This document shows, piece after piece, positions 2 through 19,033 of a stretch of DNA of 22,106 bases. Made by a program: the position numbers and the translations under genes. The notes beneath the pieces are model-generated. The model saw only the letters and a list, made by a program, of their open reading frames with translations, was not told the origin of the DNA and made no database searches. How positions within the stretch are numbered: the stretch's first letter is position 1; each line of letters opens with the position of its first letter. Source of the DNA: a virus; the IMG/VR virus record IMGVR_UViG_3300046002_004254, positions 1 to 22,106 of that record; one strand, given 5' to 3'.

Positions 2-379
2 GAAGATTTATTTCTAATTAATAAATTCTGTTTATTCCAATATGGACCAGATTTTCTTAGAAGTGGAAACAAAGCAGTAATATCAGCAATTAATAAATTA
101 ATTCAAATTGGAATTATTAATGAAATTAATGGAATATATACTCCAACGATAGAACTTGGTAAGGGTATCAATACCCTATCTATACCCTATACATACCCTA
201 TCGATACCCCCAAAGAAGAAGAAGAAGATAAAGATAAGGTTATAAATAAAATTGAAGATAAGATTGAAGAACAAGAATGGAATAATTTAAAAGATAAAAT
301 TAAAGAACAAGGTTGGAATAAATTATCAACTAAAGAAGCAAGTAGATATTATCAATTAAAAAAAACTTATAATACATAA
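2..379 (+). CDS. Partial protein with winged-helix-like part and charged tail; possible replication initiator
   Basis: The frame is open from the left edge to a TAA, giving the last 125 residues; the start is missing. The first ~50 residues (including INKLIQIGIINEINGIYTPT) look like the end of a winged-helix DNA-binding domain: a recognition-type helix followed by a short beta wing. Then comes a linker encoded by ATACCC repeats, an acidic EEEEDKDK stretch, and two copies of a 12-residue unit (EDKIEEQEWNNL / KDKIKEQGWNKL). Phage replication initiators such as lambda O carry an N-terminal winged helix and have the origin repeats inside their own gene, and the same arrangement appears here. That role is inference; it could also be a transcriptional regulator. 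The gene lies upstream of a nuclease candidate and regulatory genes, which suits an early/replication module. Confidence 0.6.
   Translation, partial: EDLFLINKFCLFQYGPDFLRSGNKAVISAINKLIQIGIINEINGIYTPTIELGKGINTLSIPYTYPIDTPKEEEEDKDKVINKIEDKIEEQEWNNLKDKIKEQGWNKLSTKEASRYYQLKKTYNT
163..209. repeat. Iteron-like ATACCC repeats with exact 11-bp period, possible origin
   Basis: ATACCC starts at 171, 182, 193 and 204, always 11 bp apart, and three of the four continue as ATACCCTAT. A reversed copy, GGGTAT at 163-168, forms a small palindrome with the first unit (GGGTATCAATACCC). Since 11 is not a multiple of three, the units fall in different reading phases of the host gene. Selection therefore seems to act on the DNA, not the protein. 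The spacing is about one helical turn, which would place bound proteins on one face. Origin iterons or an operator are the likely readings. Confidence 0.55.
255..325 (+). repeat. Imperfect 36-bp tandem repeat inside the first gene
   Basis: Bases 255-289 and 291-325 are near copies shifted by 36 bp, encoding two 12-residue units (DKIEEQEWNNLK and DKIKEQGWNKLS). This is an in-frame duplication in the charged C-terminal part of the protein. The following gene contains a related KLSTKE motif, with the shared DNA TATCAACTAAAGAA at 324-337 and 459-472. Confidence 0.55.
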
Positions 380-6278: not shown

Positions 6279-7286
6279 ATGAATATCAATTACAAACAAA
6301 TTCTAACGTACTTCAGTAGTATAGCCTACCATCACGAACAAATCCGTTCGTTTGGTTTCGGTGATTTAACTCAATGCACAAATGATATTCAAACAAAAAC
6401 AGAACCAAGATACACAAGAATGTATGTGGTCCCTGATACCGTTGAGTTAAATCAAAATCATATTCATTATAACTATAATATTATTATTATGGATATTGTT
6501 GAGGATGACTTATCCAACTTAGAAGAAGTGATGAGTGATACTCTTTCAATCGTTCAAGATGTATGGACAGTATTCTGGCAGTCATATAATGCAAACAACG
6601 GAAATTTCAGTAATATAATTATTGGTGATTGGGGTCCAAACGTTCAACCATTTCAAGAAAGGTTTCAGACAATACTTGGTGGATGGACAATGCAGATTAG
6701 AATGTCAGCACCGTTTGATTACAACAGTTGTGTATTACCAATAGCGGATGAATATCAATTCCCTCAGGATGAAAGTTATAGTTCATACCAACAGATATTA
6801 GAAGACTTTAAAAACTTTGCTTATTACCACGAACAAATTAATAGTTGGGGATTTGGTGACTATACTCAATTAACAAATGACGTAATAACAAAAAAGGAAC
6901 CACAATATCCTCGTTTATATTTTGTACCAAATACAACAAGATTTGAAGAGAACCATTTGAACATACAATATCAAGTAATCGTATGTGATAAGATTGAGGA
7001 TGATTTATCAAACCAAGCAGAGGTGCTAAGTGATACATTAGAAATATGTAAGGATTTATTCTCTTTGTCATATTTATCAGATTATGATGCTGAGTTTAAT
7101 TCATCATTGGAACCTTGGTTAGAAAGAACGGAATCAATAATTGGTGGGTGGACATTTCCATTAAACCTACAACAGAAGTTTGATTATAATAGATGCGTTC
7201 TACCAATAATAGATTTTGGTGGATTAACTTGGAAACAAGTTGCTGAGTTATGGAAAAATGTGGATGAAGATTGGAAGAATATATAA
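6279..7286 (+). CDS. Phage structural protein made of two tandem copies of one domain
   Basis: It encodes 335 residues. Residues 5-155 and 170-310 are clear copies of the same domain: YHHEQIRSFGFGDLTQ vs YYHEQINSWGFGDYTQ, IVEDDLSNLEEVMSDTLSI vs IEDDLSNQAEVLSDTLEI, ILGGWTMQ vs IIGGWTFP, and FDYNSCVLPI vs FDYNRCVLPI. The alternation of short strands with one long helix resembles tail-terminator or tail-completion folds, and the position between a chaperone candidate and tail genes fits, but I cannot name the family. The ~25-residue C-terminal tail (WKQVAELWKNVDEDWKNI) is extra. The copies have diverged, so the duplication is old. There is no signal peptide or membrane segment. Confidence 0.65.
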   Translation: MNINYKQILTYFSSIAYHHEQIRSFGFGDLTQCTNDIQTKTEPRYTRMYVVPDTVELNQNHIHYNYNIIIMDIVEDDLSNLEEVMSDTLSIVQDVWTVFWQSYNANNGNFSNIIIGDWGPNVQPFQERFQTILGGWTMQIRMSAPFDYNSCVLPIADEYQFPQDESYSSYQQILEDFKNFAYYHEQINSWGFGDYTQLTNDVITKKEPQYPRLYFVPNTTRFEENHLNIQYQVIVCDKIEDDLSNQAEVLSDTLEICKDLFSLSYLSDYDAEFNSSLEPWLERTESIIGGWTFPLNLQQKFDYNRCVLPIIDFGGLTWKQVAELWKNVDEDWKNI

Positions 7287-7314: not shown

Positions 7315-10300
7315 ATGGGTCAGTTAACTAATCAATATGTATCACAATCCTTTCAGGGTCTATTAAAGATGACTGATAGTACCACAGGTGTTACAGGAAC
7401 ATTACAGACAGTTCAAACAGGAGATGGTACAAATACTCCATTACAAATATCACAGACTGAAATAAATATATCAGGGTCATTCTTTATTAATAATGTTCCT
7501 ATTACCAATGGAACAAGTGGTTCATCAGGAACGAGTGGTGTTAATGGAACTAATGGTTCATCAGGTACGTCAGGTCAATCAGGTAGTTCAGGTTCAACAG
7601 GTTCAGGTGGTACTTCAGGTTCTTCAGGAACGAGTGGTGTTGGTTCATCAGGTACTAGTGGAACATCAGGAAGTAGTGGAGGAACAGGTTCATCAGGAAC
7701 GAGTGGTGTTGGTGGTTCATCAGGTACATCAGGTTCTAGTGGTATTGGTTCATCAGGAACATCAGGTAGTTCAGGTACAAGTGGAACCTCAGGTGAGAAT
7801 GGTATTAGTGCAGGTAGAACATTTTACTTTAATCAATCACAAACAAGTGATGTAAGTGGATATAAAATATTAAATGATACACCAACAACAGGTGCAACAC
7901 AAACAGTTACAAAGACATTAACTAATACACAACAAAACGTATTGGTTGAAAGTTATATCACACCTGAATTAGGATTTAGTTTAATTCCCGCAGGTGTTCA
8001 ACGTTTTCATTTACACTTATTAAAACCTGCGTCAAATGATGACATAGATGTATATGTTACATTACAACTAGCTAACTCAACAGGAGGAACTATTGGTAGT
8101 TTAATTACATCATCAGCTAATATTATTACTTGGAATAGCGGTAATCCTGCTGAGGTTTATGTGGATGTTGTTTTACCAACAATACAGATTGACCCAACAA
8201 ATAGAATGATAGTTAAAATCTATCTAAACAATAATGAAAGTTCATCTCACAATGTAATTTATTATACAGAGGGTACAGAATATTCTTATGTGATAACATC
8301 AGTTGGTGTTGTTGCTGGTACAAGTGGTACGTCAGGTACAAGTGGTGCAACAGGTTCAGCAGGTACTTCAGGTAGTTCAGGAACATCACCATCAGGTGGA
8401 GATAGAAATGGTTTAATTACCACAGGTTCAATAGTTGATACTCAACAAATTACAGGTAGTTTAATATTAGGTAATACGGTTATATCAGGTTCATTAATTG
8501 GTAATACAGTTAATGGTGGTTTAATTAAAATACAAACGGAAGCAAATATAAGTGGGTCAGTTCAATATAATATAACAGGTTCATCACCAATATCACAATC
8601 AAATATTATAATGGGTGGGTCTGGTCCAACATTACCAGGACTAACAGGTTCAGTTGTTATATCAGGTAGTAATAATATTTTATTAAATGGATTTAGACCA
8701 AACACATTAGTAACACAAGGAACATATGGTTATATCGGTGGTAGTAATAATATTGGTACAGCAATACCAACATTAGGAACAGGGTCATTATTAAGACCGA
8801 CAATATCCAATAACGCGTTACAGTCAGGAGTATCATTACAATTCACAACAAGTTCATTAGGACAACCATCTGTGGCAAGTAATTTAATATATGGTGGTGT
8901 TACTATAAATCATCAGAGTGGTAGTGGTAATTTCACTTTTAATTATGTTGGAGGTAACGGTTTTACTTCAAACGCAAATACAACAACATTAGGATTAAAC
9001 CCAATTACCTCTGCAAATATTATTGCAGGTGTTACCTTTCCTCAGATAACTTTAAATCATAATAGTTCATCAATACAATATCAAGGTAATATTGGTGGTG
9101 GTATGACGGTTACAAATAACTATTCATCATCAGTTTCAACAGCAGTAAACAACGCTACGGTTACAGGAAATATACTTGGTGGACAATCAAATACTTTAGT
9201 AATAAGTGGTTCTAACACATCAAATAGAAGAACATTTGATAGTAACGTAGTAATAGGTAGAAGTAATGTAATCACATCTCAACATAGTGGTTCATCAGCA
9301 GGACATTTAATTTCAACCGCAATATTGGGTGATAACTTAATTGTCTCAGCGTCACATACATCAACATCAAATGGTGGTACAGTTATAGTTGGTAGATATA
9401 ACGCAACAGGTTCATTACAAGAAAGTTCACAAGATGCTGTATTTGTTGTTGGAACAGGAACAGGTGCAGGTTCAAGAAGAAACGCAATACACGTTGATAG
9501 TAGTGGTAGTATAAGAATGACAGGTTCAGTTTTAATAGCGGCACCTCTCAACTTCGGTCATCAACCATCATTAGTTATTGGTTCATTTAGTGAAAATCAA
9601 GCGGCAGCAAACATAACAGGTTCAGTTGGTGTATCAGGTTCAATTAATGTATCAGGTTCATTATTTGTTAATGGTGTAGATATTAGTGCAGGTGCTTCAG
9701 GTAGTTCAGGTACATCAGGTACATCAGGACAAAATGGTTCATCAGGTACATCAGGACAAAATGGTTCATCAGGAACAAGTGGAGTTGGTGATATATCAGG
9801 TTTAATAACAACAGGTTCATTTGGTGTATCACAAACCATTAGTGGTTCACTATTACTTTCAACAGGACCAAACGCAGGTCAACCAACACCATTTGTTATA
9901 CAACCATTTAGTAATAGTTCATCAGCAGCAGTCATAACAGGGTCAGTATTAATATCAGGTTCATTAATATTAAATGGTAATACAATTACCTCAATAGATA
10001 GAAATGGTTTAATTACAACAGGTAGTAACGCAGATAACGACCAATACATAACAGGTGGATTACTTATATCAAGTAGTGGAAATTTTAATAAGCCAGCACT
10101 AACAATTAAATCAGGACCGAATGAAGGAAAGATAGGTGTTGAAAATGGTAATTTCTTATATCGTAATTCATCAACTTATAATACAGTTATAGGTGATGTA
10201 TCAGGTATTAGTGTTAGTACACCATTTACAAGTGGTTCAGAGAAAAACTTATTATTTACAGGATTTAATTTAGGATTTTTATCAGGTTCAAACAATACTG

Positions 10301-10857
10301 TTATCGTAGGGGCAGGTGGTGCAAACTTTATAAGTGGTTCAAACAATACCATCTTAGGTGGTGTTGGTAATTTACAATTTGGTAATGGTAACTTAATTAT
10401 TGGTGGAGGAATAACATCTACATTGATGGAGAATGTTATCTCAATAGGAACAAGTAATAGTCCTAATTTATTATATAAGTCAGGTTCAGTTGTTCAAATG
10501 GGTTATCCAACACAGGTAACAGGTTCATTAAATGCAACAACCGTAAGTTCAGCAACAGGTTATCAAGATATAACAGGAACGGTATCAGCGTCATTAAATC
10601 TATCTACAGCAAACGTATGGTTTGTGGATGATGATGCTGACCCTGATGGTGCACACCTTGATGTAACTAATTTAACTGATGGACAACAAATTAGTATTGT
10701 ATGGAACGCAAATTATACGGGTACTAGAACAGTAACATTTGGGTCAAATATATATAAAAGTGGTGGTGGAAGTTCAGTAAATTTAGAAGGAAATAAAAAA
10801 TACCTATTTACTGGCGCTGTATATAGTGGAATATTATATGTAAAAGTAAACTTATAA
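7315..10857 (+). CDS. Collagen-like and adhesin-head-like fibre protein
   Basis: It encodes 1180 residues. After a ~65-residue head come three Gly-Thr-Ser-rich collagen-like blocks (residues ~66-162, 334-362 and 792-823, with GTSGSSGTSG units). Between them are beta-rich stretches with recurring VISGSL, SGSNNTILGG and GLITTGS...QxITGSL motifs; GLITTGS occurs three times. The segment GSRRNAIHVDSSGSIRMTGS matches the style of trimeric fibre and YadA-type head repeats. The C-terminal ~90 residues (from TGTVSASLNLS) form a separate beta domain that likely caps the fibre. The protein is probably a trimeric virion fibre that reaches toward the host surface. Whether it sits on tail or head cannot be told. 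The repeats at DNA level could allow length change by recombination. Confidence 0.75.
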   Translation: MGQLTNQYVSQSFQGLLKMTDSTTGVTGTLQTVQTGDGTNTPLQISQTEINISGSFFINNVPITNGTSGSSGTSGVNGTNGSSGTSGQSGSSGSTGSGGTSGSSGTSGVGSSGTSGTSGSSGGTGSSGTSGVGGSSGTSGSSGIGSSGTSGSSGTSGTSGENGISAGRTFYFNQSQTSDVSGYKILNDTPTTGATQTVTKTLTNTQQNVLVESYITPELGFSLIPAGVQRFHLHLLKPASNDDIDVYVTLQLANSTGGTIGSLITSSANIITWNSGNPAEVYVDVVLPTIQIDPTNRMIVKIYLNNNESSSHNVIYYTEGTEYSYVITSVGVVAGTSGTSGTSGATGSAGTSGSSGTSPSGGDRNGLITTGSIVDTQQITGSLILGNTVISGSLIGNTVNGGLIKIQTEANISGSVQYNITGSSPISQSNIIMGGSGPTLPGLTGSVVISGSNNILLNGFRPNTLVTQGTYGYIGGSNNIGTAIPTLGTGSLLRPTISNNALQSGVSLQFTTSSLGQPSVASNLIYGGVTINHQSGSGNFTFNYVGGNGFTSNANTTTLGLNPITSANIIAGVTFPQITLNHNSSSIQYQGNIGGGMTVTNNYSSSVSTAVNNATVTGNILGGQSNTLVISGSNTSNRRTFDSNVVIGRSNVITSQHSGSSAGHLISTAILGDNLIVSASHTSTSNGGTVIVGRYNATGSLQESSQDAVFVVGTGTGAGSRRNAIHVDSSGSIRMTGSVLIAAPLNFGHQPSLVIGSFSENQAAANITGSVGVSGSINVSGSLFVNGVDISAGASGSSGTSGTSGQNGSSGTSGQNGSSGTSGVGDISGLITTGSFGVSQTISGSLLLSTGPNAGQPTPFVIQPFSNSSSAAVITGSVLISGSLILNGNTITSIDRNGLITTGSNADNDQYITGGLLISSSGNFNKPALTIKSGPNEGKIGVENGNFLYRNSSTYNTVIGDVSGISVSTPFTSGSEKNLLFTGFNLGFLSGSNNTVIVGAGGANFISGSNNTILGGVGNLQFGNGNLIIGGGITSTLMENVISIGTSNSPNLLYKSGSVVQMGYPTQVTGSLNATTVSSATGYQDITGTVSASLNLSTANVWFVDDDADPDGAHLDVTNLTDGQQISIVWNANYTGTRTVTFGSNIYKSGGGSSVNLEGNKKYLFTGAVYSGILYVKVNL
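7510..7800 (+). repeat. Collagen-like Gly-Thr-Ser repeat block, first and longest
   Basis: About 95 codons of near-perfect GXX triplets built from GTSG, GSSG and GVG units. Strings such as GGTTCATCAGGAACGAGTGG recur almost unchanged at DNA level. A second, shorter block lies at about 8314-8400 and a third at about 9688-9786. Confidence 0.8.
9721..9774 (+). repeat. 27-bp tandem repeat in the third collagen-like block
   Basis: Units at 9721-9747 and 9748-9774 differ only in the final base and encode TSGQNGSSG twice. The near-perfect match suggests a recent in-frame duplication or gene conversion. Confidence 0.8.
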
Positions 10858-12955: not shown

Positions 12956-15900
12956 ATGAGTCAACAGCAAACGGTATTAAGAGTTCAATTTGATAATGTA
13001 AATTCAATAACAGGAATAACTCAATATGAATTTTTAGACATATATAGTAGTATTCCACTTTTGATTAACAAGTCATTTGCGGAATTAGGAGATATAGGTA
13101 AAAGAAATTCAGACTATTCTGTTGGAGTTTTATTACCTGGTTCTAAAAAGAATAATAAGTTCTTTGAGAATTACTTTAATGTTGATGCACAATCACTTTA
13201 TTTTAATCCAAATCAAAGAGTACCTTGTCAAATACTAATCAATGATGAAGCGTATTTTACAGGGTATATGAGATTGAATAAAGTCTCAGTATTAGATTCC
13301 AAAGTAGAATATGATGTAACATTATACTCAACTCCTGCGGAATTATATGGTAGTATCGGTAACAATTTAGTTAAAGACTTAAACTTTGCTGATGATGATT
13401 ATACTTTTAACCACGTATTCAATTTAGATAATGTAACAAAAGGATTTACATACGATAACTTTTCTTTAAATCAAGAAGAACCATATCCATATTTTTATCC
13501 TGTTGTTCACAATGGTTATCTATATACAGGTGATACTGTAAACTTTACAGGTGGAACCATCTTATCAAGAACAAATTTATATACATCAACAGGACCAATA
13601 AATTCTTATGTTGATTTAGCTGCTGCTTATGCTGCTGGTGTTCAACAGTTTAGAATAAACTCACCAACACAAGGATTATATAACAACCAATTAAAACCTG
13701 GTTTAAACGTATGGAGTTTATTAAAGTTGATGTTTAAGACTTACGGGTATTCCATTACATCTGATTTCTTCAATACCCCTTGGGTGAAGACATTATATAT
13801 GTTTGGATATTTTAGTTCAGATTTAACAAAGTTTGCGTTCTCAGTTAGTTCAATTCAAACATTACCAATAGAAGGTGTTGAGGTATTTTTTGTAGATATA
13901 GAGAATAAAGTAAATGCTGTGGTTGCAAAACTTGGAACAGGTATTCCTGTTTTTTGTGCTTCAGATATAAACATCACATTAAATTATGTGGGTGGATACA
14001 CAATTAATTCAACCATACCTTATGGAACAAGTGGATTAACATTTAACACAGGGATTAATTTTGTTAGTGGTAGTTCATCAGATGTACCAAATGGTACAAC
14101 ATTAAAATACTTACCTGTAAATGTCGGAGATACTGTACCATATGTAGATGGTGACTATGTTGATTTTAGTCTCGTTGTAGACCAAAATATTAAACAGATA
14201 GATGTTTTATCATCCATTGCAAAGAAGTTCAATTTGGTCCTTATTCCTGACCCTAATAACGGTTACAATATTCGTATTGAACCATATGATTATTTTATTG
14301 GAACAGGTGAAGTTCATAATTGGACTAATCTAATTAGTTACGATAAAGGATTTACGGTTGAACCAGCACTAAACTTTATAGAAAGTGAAATTCAATTCAC
14401 AGACCAAGAGGATAATGATGAGGGAAATAGATTATTTAAAATAAATAATAATAGAATATACGGACAGAACTATGTCTATAACCCAACAAGTTTTAAATCT
14501 TCTGTTAAGAAAATTGATACAATATTCTCACCTGAGTTAATTCGTGTATGGGATAGTTCAGGTACAACGAATAATGGTAATATAGGTTTACCTTTGGGTA
14601 TTAACTATGCGGGTTCAAACAACCAAATAGAAACAGCAACAACTGAAAAGGTTAACTGGATTTACAAGGGAGTTAAAACAAAACCAAAATTGTTTTGGTG
14701 GTTGGGATGTCAAAATCCATTCCTTGATGTTTTGGGTGAAACATTTAATGCGGCAAACTTTTATAAAACATATAATATATATATACAGAACTCAAGTGGG
14801 TCAACTTATTATCAGTTAAATAACATACCTGTTATAAGTCATACGATGCCAATGGGTAACCCTGATACTAATAAGATAAATAACGACTCACAATGTATAT
14901 TATTTAATTCAGAATTACCAGCAAACGTTGATATTGGTGTACAACCATTCAACACATATACAGAAAACGATGCTTATTCTTCTTTCTATGAAGGTAGAAT
15001 AACTAATTTATACGACCCTAATACAAGAGTATTGAGTGGTTATTTTAATTTAAGTTACGCAGACTTAAAGAACTTACAACCTGAAGATTTAATTAAGGTT
15101 AACGAACAATATTTTGTTGTAAGTAAAATTGATGGTTTCAACTTAACAAATAGAGAATTAACTAAAGTTGAATTAATTCAATTTAACGGACAACCTAACA
15201 CATATATAGATAGATATTTCCAATATTACTATTGTGATGACCCGTCTACAATTTATAATTTTAAAACTGATTTTACAAATCCAAATTTATTAAATACTAA
15301 TTTTGGTTGGTCACTTTATTATGATTATCAGATAGGAACATTAGGTGGTAGTCAATCAGGATTTACAAGTACATTTAAGGACACCATTGGTGGTCAGGAT
15401 GTCTACATACCATATAACATTTATGAGGTCAATGAGGATACTTATTCAACGTCTGGTAGAAGCAGTTGGGATTGTGATTCATTACATCAACATTTTTATT
15501 CACAACCTTATGGACCATTTATTAATAGTATGCCAACGTTTTGGGTTAACTCAGGTGTAACTCAAACAGGTATAAATCTATTTACAAATTGTGCTAATTT
15601 TGAATCCGCAAGAACAACATATGGTATATTAACAGGTTCATCAATTACATATGGATTTGGATGTCCTACACCTACACCTACAGCAACTGTTACAGTTACA
15701 CCAAGTGTAACACCTTCTTTTACCCCCACTAATACAATAACACCAAGTGTAACTCCAACATATACACCAACTAAAACTGTAACACCCACTCCTACTATTA
15801 CACCTTCATTTATACCAAGTTATACTGTTAATATGAATTATACTGGAATTACATATGGTTTAACAGCAGGATTTAGTAAGGTAACAAAAGATGTTGATAT

Positions 15901-17710
15901 GTATTATAATTATGATGGACAACCACAAATTTTAGCAGGCAGTTTTAGTTATAATAATATTAGTGGAACAACAACATTTTCTAATAGTATAAAAACTAAT
16001 GTAATTCCAAATAATGGTTTTTATACATTTCAACCTTTTTATTGTTTTAACGCACCAAATCAAATTAATAGTCTACATAATGAATTTACTTTATATAAAA
16101 ATAATATTTTAATAAACGGTTCAGGAACAGAAGGGTGTAGCCCTTATGGTGGAACTTGTCCAAATAATGAACAACACTGTGGTGGAGGTGGAATTTATGT
16201 AGGTACTACACCATTATTAAGTACTGATGTTCTTACTTGGAATATTGTAAATACTTTTGGTGATGTACAAAGTGGTTTAACTCTAAATAATAATGGTAGT
16301 AACTATCCTTCTACTAATCCAAATAATCATACTTGGTTTAATCAATCAAATTCTCAAAATAAATTACCTGATGGTGTATTATCTGGATGGACTACTCCTC
16401 AATACGCACCATTTTTTGATCCTTTTAATTTTGGTGGATGGTTTAATTTTGATGGCGTTGATGATTATTGTTATTTTAGAAATGGTGATAGTAGTAAAAC
16501 TGCTAAAGTTACTTTTGGTGGATGGGTTAGAGGTTCACAATCAGCAACAGATAAAGTATTTTATAGTAGTGTAAATAAATTTGATTTAACAGATAATAAT
16601 CAATTAAGAATATATAAAAATTCATTAAATAAATTTGTTGTAAGTATTTATGGTAGTTATGAAGTTACAGGTTCTACAACAACATTAATTGATAATATTT
16701 GGAATTATGTAATTGGTATGTGGGAACCAGGAGTAGGATTATCAATATTTATTAATGGTGTATTAGAAGGAATAACATATAATTCTCAATCAACTTTAGA
16801 AAATAATTATTATTGGCAAATAGCTAAAACACAACCATCAACATTTTATCAAGTTGGTATTGGTGATTTTGAAGTATTTGATACACTTTTAACTGAAGCT
16901 GAAATATTATATAATTATAAAGTTAATAGTTATAAATATGAACCTTTTCTTACACCTACACCAACAACTACACCAACAAGTACACCATATTTAACACCAA
17001 CAATTACACCATCAACAGGAGTGAATTCAATAATTCAAAGTGGATTAACTATTAATACAAATGGTACATATTCTTCTTATACTGGAACTGGTACAGTATG
17101 GTATGATTTAAAAAATAACTATAATGGTGATTTAATAAATGGACCAACTTGGAATAGTGGAACAGGTGGATATTTCTCATTTGATGGAGTAAACGATTAT
17201 TGTTATTTTGGAGATAGTTCAAAAGGTTTAGATACAGGAAGTAGAACATTTGGTGGTTGGGTAAGGTCAACAACTTCATCAACAGATAAAGCTTTTTATT
17301 TTAGAGGTGAAGATGGGTTTCCAAGCGGAGGTGGAAATGGATGGAGTATGTCATTATATAAGGCGGGTGTTACAAATAAATTTGCTTTTACTAATATTTT
17401 TATATTTGGTGCTAATAGTGGAACTGTTACAAGTACAACAACACTTGTTGATAATACTTGGTATTATGTTATTGCAAGATGGACAGCAGGAGTTGAATTA
17501 TCAATATATGTTAATGGAGTAAAAGAAGCCACAAGTTCTAATAACCAAGGTACTTTAAGAAGTTCAAGTAGAGGTTGGGAGATTGCAAGATATAATGGAC
17601 CAACATATCGTAATATGGATATAGGAGATTTTGAATTATATGATAGGGCTTTATCTGACGCAGAAGTATTACAAAATTATAACACAAGAAAAGGAATATA
17701 TGGATATTAA
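12956..17710 (+). CDS. Large tail protein with Thr-Pro linkers and two lectin-like (LamG/concanavalin) domains
   Basis: It encodes 1584 residues. The first ~900 are a beta-rich tail/baseplate-type body: KRNSDYSVGVLLPGSKKNN, FNPNQRVPCQILI, and a segment with IKQIDVLSSIAKKFNLVLIP and NIRIEPYDYF. A Thr-Pro linker (904-955; TPTPTATVTVTPSVTPS) leads to a first lectin-like domain (FDGVDDYCYF near 1165, GGWVRG, LSIFINGVLEG). A second TP linker (1330-1356) leads to a second copy (FDGVNDYCYF near 1409, GGWVRS, LSIYVNGVKEA), 244 residues later, ending near the C-terminus. LamG/concanavalin folds bind sugars, so the tips likely recognise host surface glycans. Ligand is unknown. The C-terminal part looks more AT-rich than the body, suggesting it was acquired separately. 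Confidence 0.75.
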   Translation: MSQQQTVLRVQFDNVNSITGITQYEFLDIYSSIPLLINKSFAELGDIGKRNSDYSVGVLLPGSKKNNKFFENYFNVDAQSLYFNPNQRVPCQILINDEAYFTGYMRLNKVSVLDSKVEYDVTLYSTPAELYGSIGNNLVKDLNFADDDYTFNHVFNLDNVTKGFTYDNFSLNQEEPYPYFYPVVHNGYLYTGDTVNFTGGTILSRTNLYTSTGPINSYVDLAAAYAAGVQQFRINSPTQGLYNNQLKPGLNVWSLLKLMFKTYGYSITSDFFNTPWVKTLYMFGYFSSDLTKFAFSVSSIQTLPIEGVEVFFVDIENKVNAVVAKLGTGIPVFCASDINITLNYVGGYTINSTIPYGTSGLTFNTGINFVSGSSSDVPNGTTLKYLPVNVGDTVPYVDGDYVDFSLVVDQNIKQIDVLSSIAKKFNLVLIPDPNNGYNIRIEPYDYFIGTGEVHNWTNLISYDKGFTVEPALNFIESEIQFTDQEDNDEGNRLFKINNNRIYGQNYVYNPTSFKSSVKKIDTIFSPELIRVWDSSGTTNNGNIGLPLGINYAGSNNQIETATTEKVNWIYKGVKTKPKLFWWLGCQNPFLDVLGETFNAANFYKTYNIYIQNSSGSTYYQLNNIPVISHTMPMGNPDTNKINNDSQCILFNSELPANVDIGVQPFNTYTENDAYSSFYEGRITNLYDPNTRVLSGYFNLSYADLKNLQPEDLIKVNEQYFVVSKIDGFNLTNRELTKVELIQFNGQPNTYIDRYFQYYYCDDPSTIYNFKTDFTNPNLLNTNFGWSLYYDYQIGTLGGSQSGFTSTFKDTIGGQDVYIPYNIYEVNEDTYSTSGRSSWDCDSLHQHFYSQPYGPFINSMPTFWVNSGVTQTGINLFTNCANFESARTTYGILTGSSITYGFGCPTPTPTATVTVTPSVTPSFTPTNTITPSVTPTYTPTKTVTPTPTITPSFIPSYTVNMNYTGITYGLTAGFSKVTKDVDMYYNYDGQPQILAGSFSYNNISGTTTFSNSIKTNVIPNNGFYTFQPFYCFNAPNQINSLHNEFTLYKNNILINGSGTEGCSPYGGTCPNNEQHCGGGGIYVGTTPLLSTDVLTWNIVNTFGDVQSGLTLNNNGSNYPSTNPNNHTWFNQSNSQNKLPDGVLSGWTTPQYAPFFDPFNFGGWFNFDGVDDYCYFRNGDSSKTAKVTFGGWVRGSQSATDKVFYSSVNKFDLTDNNQLRIYKNSLNKFVVSIYGSYEVTGSTTTLIDNIWNYVIGMWEPGVGLSIFINGVLEGITYNSQSTLENNYYWQIAKTQPSTFYQVGIGDFEVFDTLLTEAEILYNYKVNSYKYEPFLTPTPTTTPTSTPYLTPTITPSTGVNSIIQSGLTINTNGTYSSYTGTGTVWYDLKNNYNGDLINGPTWNSGTGGYFSFDGVNDYCYFGDSSKGLDTGSRTFGGWVRSTTSSTDKAFYFRGEDGFPSGGGNGWSMSLYKAGVTNKFAFTNIFIFGANSGTVTSTTTLVDNTWYYVIARWTAGVELSIYVNGVKEATSSNNQGTLRSSSRGWEIARYNGPTYRNMDIGDFELYDRALSDAEVLQNYNTRKGIYGY
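15665..15820 (+). repeat. Thr-Pro-rich linker coding repeat
   Basis: It encodes a run of T-P dipeptides (TPTPTATVTVTPSVTPS and similar) with DNA repeats such as ACACCAAGTGTAAC (twice). Related linkers lie at about 16943-17020 in the same gene and at about 18446-18562 and 18788-18820 in the second modular gene. Such extended, protease-resistant linkers separate binding domains. Confidence 0.75.
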
Positions 17711-17977: not shown

Positions 17978-19033
17978 ATGGGAAGGAAATATATAAAACA
18001 AAGAACAAGTTCAAATTTCGTATATCCAAATAATAGTTTGGAGGAATATGACGTTGAAATTGTTCACGATATCAATAACAATAGTGTTAGTGGAACGACC
18101 ACATCTATAACTGCAAGTAGTATTTCATCGTCAAGTATTACCTTTTCTTTTGATTATACTTGGTCACAGAATGGTGCTGAACCGTTTGTGTTTACAGGAA
18201 CCTCATATAGTTTCCTATCGGTTCATATGATGGAACCAAGTACCATCTATTATAAACCTTGGAGATTGGTTTCAGCAGTCACAGGTGTTGCAGCTTCAAC
18301 TAAATCAGGAACGGTTACATTTACGGTAACTCCATCAATGATGGGAGTATCTTCATTTAGTAATGGTACATATAGTTTTGAAATTAGAATGATAGGTAAA
18401 CGTGCAATATTTCCAATATGTCAAAATGTAACGGTATCAACAATACCTGGTCCAACTCCTACACCTACTGTAACAACAACTAAAACACCAACACCTACTC
18501 CTACTATGACAAGTACACCAGGTGCCAGTCCATCACCTACACCAACCATTACACCAACTAATCAAATATCAACAATATATAAATCAGGCGCAACAATTAA
18601 TGTTATTGATACAGGATGGATTAAATATGATACGAGTACAGCAACAGATGTTTATCAATTTATTAATACATTGGGAGTGGTTACATTAACCCCTTGTATA
18701 GATTGTGATTCAATATTTCCAGGAGTTCCTTTTGCGGACATTGCTAATTACACAATAATACAATGTGGAACAGGATGTAGTGGAGTACCAACACCAAGTC
18801 CAACACCGACAAGTTCACCCGCAGTAAGTTATGGACATTATCAAATGACTGATTGTCAAACGGATAATCAACAAAGATTTACACAATCAGTACTTTATGG
18901 AACATTTAATAGTGGAGATAGAGTAGAAGGAAGTCAAGGATATTTTTATGTGATAACAGGATTTACACCATCAACACCTGACCCATCATTAATATTCTAT
19001 GTAACATCAACTGGTGAATATGATTGTCCATAA
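17978..19033 (+). CDS. Modular tail/fibre protein with Thr-Pro linkers
   Basis: It encodes 351 residues in three parts. Residues 1-155 form a Ser/Thr-rich beta domain, perhaps Ig-like (SSSSITFSFDYTW, GTVTFTVTPS, GTYSFEIRMIG). A TP linker (157-195; PTPTPTVTTTKTPTPTPT) leads to a small Cys-bearing module (TPCIDCDSIFPG, ending CGTGC). A short linker (271-281; PTPSPTPTSSP) leads to the C-terminal module (GHYQMTDCQTD ... GEYDCP), whose two cysteines may form a disulfide. No enzymatic motif is seen. The shared TP-linker design with the gene upstream suggests a kit of exchangeable binding modules. The start ATG follows AT-rich sequence without a Shine-Dalgarno site. Confidence 0.65.
   Translation: MGRKYIKQRTSSNFVYPNNSLEEYDVEIVHDINNNSVSGTTTSITASSISSSSITFSFDYTWSQNGAEPFVFTGTSYSFLSVHMMEPSTIYYKPWRLVSAVTGVAASTKSGTVTFTVTPSMMGVSSFSNGTYSFEIRMIGKRAIFPICQNVTVSTIPGPTPTPTVTTTKTPTPTPTMTSTPGASPSPTPTITPTNQISTIYKSGATINVIDTGWIKYDTSTATDVYQFINTLGVVTLTPCIDCDSIFPGVPFADIANYTIIQCGTGCSGVPTPSPTPTSSPAVSYGHYQMTDCQTDNQQRFTQSVLYGTFNSGDRVEGSQGYFYVITGFTPSTPDPSLIFYVTSTGEYDCP

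Follow-up and report, generated by a model that had tools for sequence, protein, structure and literature searches.

A phased array of 11-bp repeats and a hexamer track make up a candidate replication origin inside an unannotated phage gene

Results

The gene at the contig edge

The window, by which we mean the whole stretch of 22,106 nucleotides analysed here (positions 1 to 22,106 of the virus record IMGVR_UViG_3300046002_004254), opens inside a gene. On the plus strand, positions 2..379 hold the 3' part of a putative replication initiator gene (125 codons and the stop), recognised through the family alignment; its start lies beyond the contig end, and the stretch keeps only the last 125 of 197 codons. 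A complete copy is found at L001:108-701, with 197 codons of which the first read MAKRFTDNEKWQDNW, and in the overlap its product is identical to that of the window at 125 of 125 amino acids. The 197-residue protein is laid out as a predicted winged helix, a disordered linker encoded by the repeats described below, and a helix. The C-terminal part of this lineage's protein matched no family in profile searches (Pfam at E up to 0.1), and no replication genes were recognised beside the gene among those neighbours in the lineage that were scanned with domain profiles.

Several other genes of the window deserve mention in their own right. The product of 1144-1857 contains segments of zinc-ribbon type that match endonuclease VII families (1.9e-6) and a C-terminal HTH_23 domain (1.9e-5), and the small protein encoded at 2103-2621 resembles sigma-70 region 2 at a level under the Pfam cut-off (E 6.6e-4). 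By eye, the protein of 6279-7286 resembles a tandem duplication of one domain. The 1180-residue protein of 7315-10857 carries long collagen-like GTSGSSGTSG runs and is probably a tail fibre, while 12956-17710 and 17978-19033 encode large proteins with TPTPT linkers rich in threonine and proline, the former with two apparently similar C-terminal domains.

An array of four 11-bp units

Within the gene, positions 166..209 of the plus strand are occupied by an array of four 11-bp units with the consensus TATCNATACCC, candidate initiator-binding iterons whose phase is kept in relatives. The units follow one another head to tail as TATCAATACCC, TATCTATACCC, TATACATACCC and TATCGATACCC, placing the hexamer ATACCC at 171, 182, 193 and 204, exactly 11 bp apart. 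An inverted unit, GGGTAT at 163-168, faces the first ATACCC (163..176 for the pair, which has no strand of its own), the two cores being offset by 8 bp. The four phased hexamers and the inverted copy had been pointed out in an earlier note on this DNA; we reproduced all of the positions, and the phasing goes beyond what shuffled sequences produce. Taken singly, the hexamer occurs at chance level, with 14 matches in the window against a shuffle mean of 10.9, and it is the phasing, not hexamer frequency, that sets the array apart. Its period-11 self-match score is 20.5, and no other period-11 stretch of the window scores 8 or more; dinucleotide-shuffling the entire window 100 times never gave a score above 14.5. 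In a complete gene copy (L005) the array outscores all 200 synonymous-codon shuffles. The earlier note was also right that a spacing of 11 bp is not divisible by three, and for this reason the array is not a protein repeat, a reading that can be ruled out.

Immediately before the array, the window lineage has 33 nt (131..163, plus strand) that are missing in the close relative L009. This 11-codon segment equals three unit lengths and accounts for linkers of 45 and 34 codons, respectively; it may possibly consist of decayed units.

A widespread family

With the full-length protein as query, a first alignment yielded 514 relatives in virus contigs, from which the best 80 of 514 were kept. A first scan of genome contigs returned no relatives, and a broader alignment returned 23 in bacterial genome assemblies. 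The titles of these assemblies name Bacteroidota, Elusimicrobia, Omnitrophica, Desulfobacterales, Bdellovibrionaceae, Melainabacteria, Nitrospirae, a Firmicutes bin and others, host names that are only as good as the binning because most of the assemblies are metagenome bins. The window's partial protein had no match in the phage database. With the full protein as query, Pseudanabaena phage Pan5 was the only named phage to match the N-terminal part at the thresholds used; the gene is annotated as hypothetical, and no clear 11-bp array was found in it by score. A literature search, judged by titles and the openings of abstracts, found no description of this family or of 11-bp phage origin iterons, a weak negative given that subscription papers and bioRxiv lay outside its scope. 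In the collections searched, the family is widespread and unannotated.

The 80 loci were dereplicated to 49 (less than 85% identity over the first 115 residues, at least 140 residues in length), and these together with the 23 genome loci form a set of 72. For the stability comparison and the tree described below, 66 loci were used after L040, L070, L077, L080, L100 and L106 had been removed by hand because the track was weak, out of place or missing, or because the gene has an HNH-like insertion. An independent sample started from 156 loci, of which 36 had no motif-bearing open reading frame; the remaining 120 were dereplicated to 36, and 30 of these have a track. At 85% ungapped identity, this sample has no row in common with the first set.

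The phase is conserved, the letters are not

Recurrence of 6-mers in the linker-coding stretch was counted in 69 of the 72 relatives, omitting the three without a hexamer track. A direct repeat at 11, 22 or 33 bp is present in 50 of the 69 and missing in 19. By distance, 41 genes have one at 11 bp, 33 at 22 bp and 22 at 33 bp, against at most 6 of 69 at any other distance between 7 and 45 bp, and at most 7 genes at any distance in the control, an N-terminal coding stretch of equal length from the same genes. The independent sample behaves likewise: 26 of 30 genes repeat a 6-mer at 11, 22 or 33 bp and 4 do not, with 23 of 30 doing so at 11 bp compared with none in the control region. Inverted 6-mers peak at offsets of 8, 10 and 12 bp (28, 37 and 31 genes, versus 2, 3 and 2 in the control), the first of these being the offset seen in the window, which indicates that units also occur inverted in register.

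Scores based on periodicity give a similar picture. Leaving multiples of three aside, the best period from codon 91 to the end is 11 in 32 of the 49 virus-contig genes and 22 in another 10. Compared with 200 synonymous-codon shuffles, only 20 of the 49 have a period-11 score above every shuffle, and in 31 the score is reached by at most 10 of the 200. When each whole locus is searched for its highest-scoring period-11 stretch, this falls within the 3' part of the gene at 42 of 72 loci, where 4.3 would be expected by length, and in 7 of 10 long contigs no period-11 stretch elsewhere on the contig scores higher. Two genes among the 72, L100 and L106, have neither a clear array nor a clear track.

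The letters of the repeats vary by lineage, with ATACCCTAT-, AAGGGGCTT-, TAATGATTA-, TAACCCTTA- and ATGAAC-type units among others. Many units resemble, by eye, a 9-bp sequence with mirror-like ends and an asymmetric core, followed by two spacer bases. Mapped onto a tree of the DNA-binding domain, the iteron class changes 21 times, whereas shuffled labels change 37 times on average and none of 200 shuffles is as low, a result that is only descriptive because the classes were defined by hand from patterns already seen. Linker lengths mostly step by 11 codons, that is, by 33 bp or three units, the smallest step to preserve both the reading frame and the 11-bp phase. In the ATACCC clade, 10 distinct sequences have a 34-codon linker, against 45 codons in the window lineage; other sister groups have 32 versus 43 and 60 versus 71 codons, with single sequences at 35 and 59. 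The earlier note had named repeats that vary freely or are absent in relatives as a result that would count against it, and the outcome favours its reading: the letters do change, and the 11-bp phase stays in most. Judged by sequence, phase and position are conserved between lineages and the repeat letters are not.

A hexamer-periodic track follows the array

Shortly after the array, at 213..237 on the plus strand, a purine-rich track with hexamer periodicity begins, which together with the A+T-rich DNA that follows it is a candidate unwinding region. In the complete gene copy L005, the track (gene positions 427-452) is 92% purine. A hexamer track is found downstream in 69 of the 72 dereplicated relatives; it has a period of 6 bp and a purine content of 82%, compared with 55% in the N-terminal part of the genes. 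Array and track are separated by a median of 3 bp, and the gap lies between -15 and +40 bp in 37 of 43 genes with a score for both features (72 examined).

The track also stands out in predicted duplex stability. At the median of the 66 loci, it is less stable than 90% of 40-bp windows; for the array the figure is an ordinary 53%. In the window itself, the 40-bp stretches with start positions from 221 to 281 rank between the 89th and the 97th percentile, a region of low stability extending across 221-300. On predicted stability, then, an A+T-rich and easily melted tract adjoins the repeats, as in the intragenic origins of the lambda type.

Is the track maintained as protein or as DNA? Residues encoded by 99 tracks are chiefly K, D and E, next M, V, Q and I, with R and S rare, and ATA accounts for 41 of 46 isoleucine codons in tracks against 295 of 738 in codons 1-95. 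The composition and the ATA bias fit a pattern kept in the DNA better than a charged linker, with the reservation that the codon counts are biased because the tracks were picked by DNA periodicity.

The encoded protein

In the predicted model, based on 27 sequences and with a mean pLDDT of 84, the chain is arranged as a winged helix up to about residue 120, with confidence over residues 11-120. Residues 132-145, which the array encodes, fall below a pLDDT of 50, consistent with a flexible linker, and are followed by a long helix. The repeats thus sit inside the putative initiator gene between the two parts of its protein, as they do in lambda-type systems. A fold of the ParR/parC type was considered and rejected, the elements of the model being those of a winged helix and not of a ribbon-helix-helix. 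In the VIA structural comparison the best match was CRP (Z 7.3, 62 residues, rmsd 2.4), followed by the winged helices of ORC2 and MCM8 at 7.2; rows with Z near 7 are common winged helices, under the level that shows kinship. A further VIA row, the C-terminal domain of DnaG (Z 7.1), covers residues 139-197 in a helical arrangement. Foldseek returned no match in the PDB at E 0.001 or better, nor did the family profile match a PDB sequence at E 0.1.

The C-terminal parts differ among relatives. PHROG 270, 'replication initiation protein', matches those of L088 (8.6e-22) and L093 (5.2e-12), and Pfam Phg_2220_C that of L086 (9.3e-14); matches of one or the other type were obtained for L088, L093, L066, L073 and L086 and none for the window lineage. 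A weak C-terminal match to a DnaD-like loader family also appears in relatives. As a separate matter, translations inspected by eye show an HNH-endonuclease-like domain after the winged helix at L070:4001-5050, L077:4001-4816 and L106:6001-6639, with an 11-residue (33-bp) repeat following this domain in L077.

Neighbouring genes and GC skew

In seven relatives (L101, L092, L058, L071, L102, L065 and L070) a DnaB helicase gene starts within 20 nt of the end of the gene, directly after it in L101 and L092, and in L074 and L066 it starts about 160 nt after. An IstB/DnaC-type ATPase, a loader, follows the gene in L088 and L093. A search for DnaB_C in the records of 50 relatives was positive in only 8, 7 of them above the cut-off. 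The cumulative GC skew, which the earlier note had suggested as a check for an origin, lent no support: in 10 long contigs the nearest detrended extremum lies at a mean circular distance of 0.178 of the contig against 0.167 for random positions, and this says little about the origin because the skew runs mostly one way along the contig.

Discussion

What might such an arrangement do? It would be a variant of the known intragenic iteron origin. The array, its phase, its position, the track and the replication genes around relatives can be read off the sequences directly, and we infer the binding of the array by the protein, the melting of the track and the start of replication. We consider it probable that the gene carries a lambda-like intragenic origin at which the initiator would bind the array and open the adjacent track, and where replication would start. 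The product of the first gene would then be the phage's replication initiator, its N-terminal winged-helix domain binding the 11-bp iterons in the stretch that encodes its own linker. One winged-helix domain would occupy each helical turn and, since there is one unit per turn, all of the bound domains would lie on one face of the DNA. The resulting nucleoprotein complex may strain and open the adjoining A+T-rich purine track, and the C-terminal part may recruit a helicase loader or the helicase. The earlier note had proposed an origin or an operator bound by the encoded winged-helix protein, and that proposal gains from the predicted fold, from the place of the array in most relatives, from the initiator C-terminal domains of relatives and from the helicase or loader genes downstream in several of them.

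The operator half of that proposal has some appeal of its own. The protein could repress its own transcript by acting as a roadblock on the array, with replication starting elsewhere; phased winged-helix sites would fit a repressor, and the window lineage has no recognised replication gene next door. We nevertheless regard this as unlikely, given that throughout the family the array is accompanied by a melting-prone track, that relatives have initiator-type C-terminal domains and adjacent helicases, and that inspection by eye found no ATACCC in the 107 bp 5' of the gene in L001, nor in the upstream stretch of L003. Less probable still is that the repeats merely reflect a low-complexity protein linker, or slippage during replication, and do nothing as DNA: the linker is indeed predicted to be disordered, and the simple-sequence track adjoining it could expand by slippage, but because 11 is not a multiple of three any slip by one unit would shift the reading frame, the direct repeats have their peaks at 11, 22 and 33 bp and not at 9, 12 or 15, lineages carry different repeats at one common period, and 20 of 49 genes outscore all of their synonymous shuffles.

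Repeats of the same length are known from plasmid partition. ParR of plasmid R1 is a ribbon-helix-helix protein with a role in segregation, which separates it from the predicted winged helix of this family, and we know of no parC site located inside an initiator gene. The 11-bp direct repeats that the array has in common with R1 parC, of which ParR requires at least two (PMC9426499), make a centromere-like partition site conceivable, and it is the least credible of the readings, as the predicted fold is a winged helix and not a ribbon-helix-helix, the array lies inside the initiator gene ahead of a melting-prone track, and no ParM- or ParA-like gene was recognised among the subset of neighbours scanned.

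The lambda-like origin, which we favour, has known counterparts. In lambda, O-binding repeats lie in the middle of gene O and an adjacent A+T-rich tract of 38-40 bp opens (PMC7466680, PMC3349717, PMC5043065). Lambda and its Stx phage relatives resemble the present family in this respect, with repeated sites for the initiator placed centrally in the gene that encodes it and an A+T-rich tract directly after, and differ in that lambda has four iterons of 18 or 19 bp, each an inverted repeat bound by dimers, whereas the present family has 11-bp units, mostly head to tail and some inverted in register, at about two to eight per array. Pfam scans of the window lineage (E up to 0.1) and of 10 relatives (E up to 0.01) listed no lambda O family. 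The staphylococcal plasmid pSK41 likewise has its origin in the linker-coding part of the initiator gene, with four Rep boxes placed centrally in rep and bound by the N-terminal domain (PMC5703833). It differs in being a plasmid with a RepA_N initiator, a domain for which the Pfam scans of the window lineage and 10 relatives listed no match, where the present case is a phage.

Annotated phage initiators resemble the family only in part. PHROG 270, Acinetobacter phage IME-AB2, Citrobacter phage phiNP (its 'replication protein O') and Streptococcus phage Javan310 have C-terminal domains in common with some relatives, and their matches to the family are limited to these parts. None of six annotated initiator genes sharing only the C-terminal domain contains a clear 11-bp array. 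In IME-AB2 (L131:634-1512), 23-bp repeats with a period of 23 lie inside the annotated initiator gene, next to DnaB. The annotated initiator gene of Javan310 (L134:718-1479) has a GATATA hexamer track, preceded by a weak 11-bp repeat that does not rise above shuffles.

A broader proposition, which we put forward tentatively and regard as possible but less probable than its contrary, is that these genes constitute a widespread, unannotated initiator family with a two-part intragenic origin. One part would be the one-turn iterons, whose letters would co-evolve with the binding domain under a fixed phase and whose number would grow in 33-bp steps; the other would be the purine-rich hexamer track, often of AWR-GWT codons with K, M or I alternating with D or V, kept as DNA and serving as a repeating single-strand binding element for the initiator or the loader. 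In concept, such a track would resemble the DnaA-trio found in origins of bacteria. Should the reading of the array as an origin hold, it would supply a rule for locating the origin from sequence in hundreds of uncultured phages and prophages with unannotated initiators, spanning hosts from Bacteroidota to Elusimicrobiota, Omnitrophota and others. It would also offer a natural series in which the letters of the site change and the spacing stays fixed, so that the co-evolution of winged-helix specificity and site under the constraint of a reading frame would be open to direct test.
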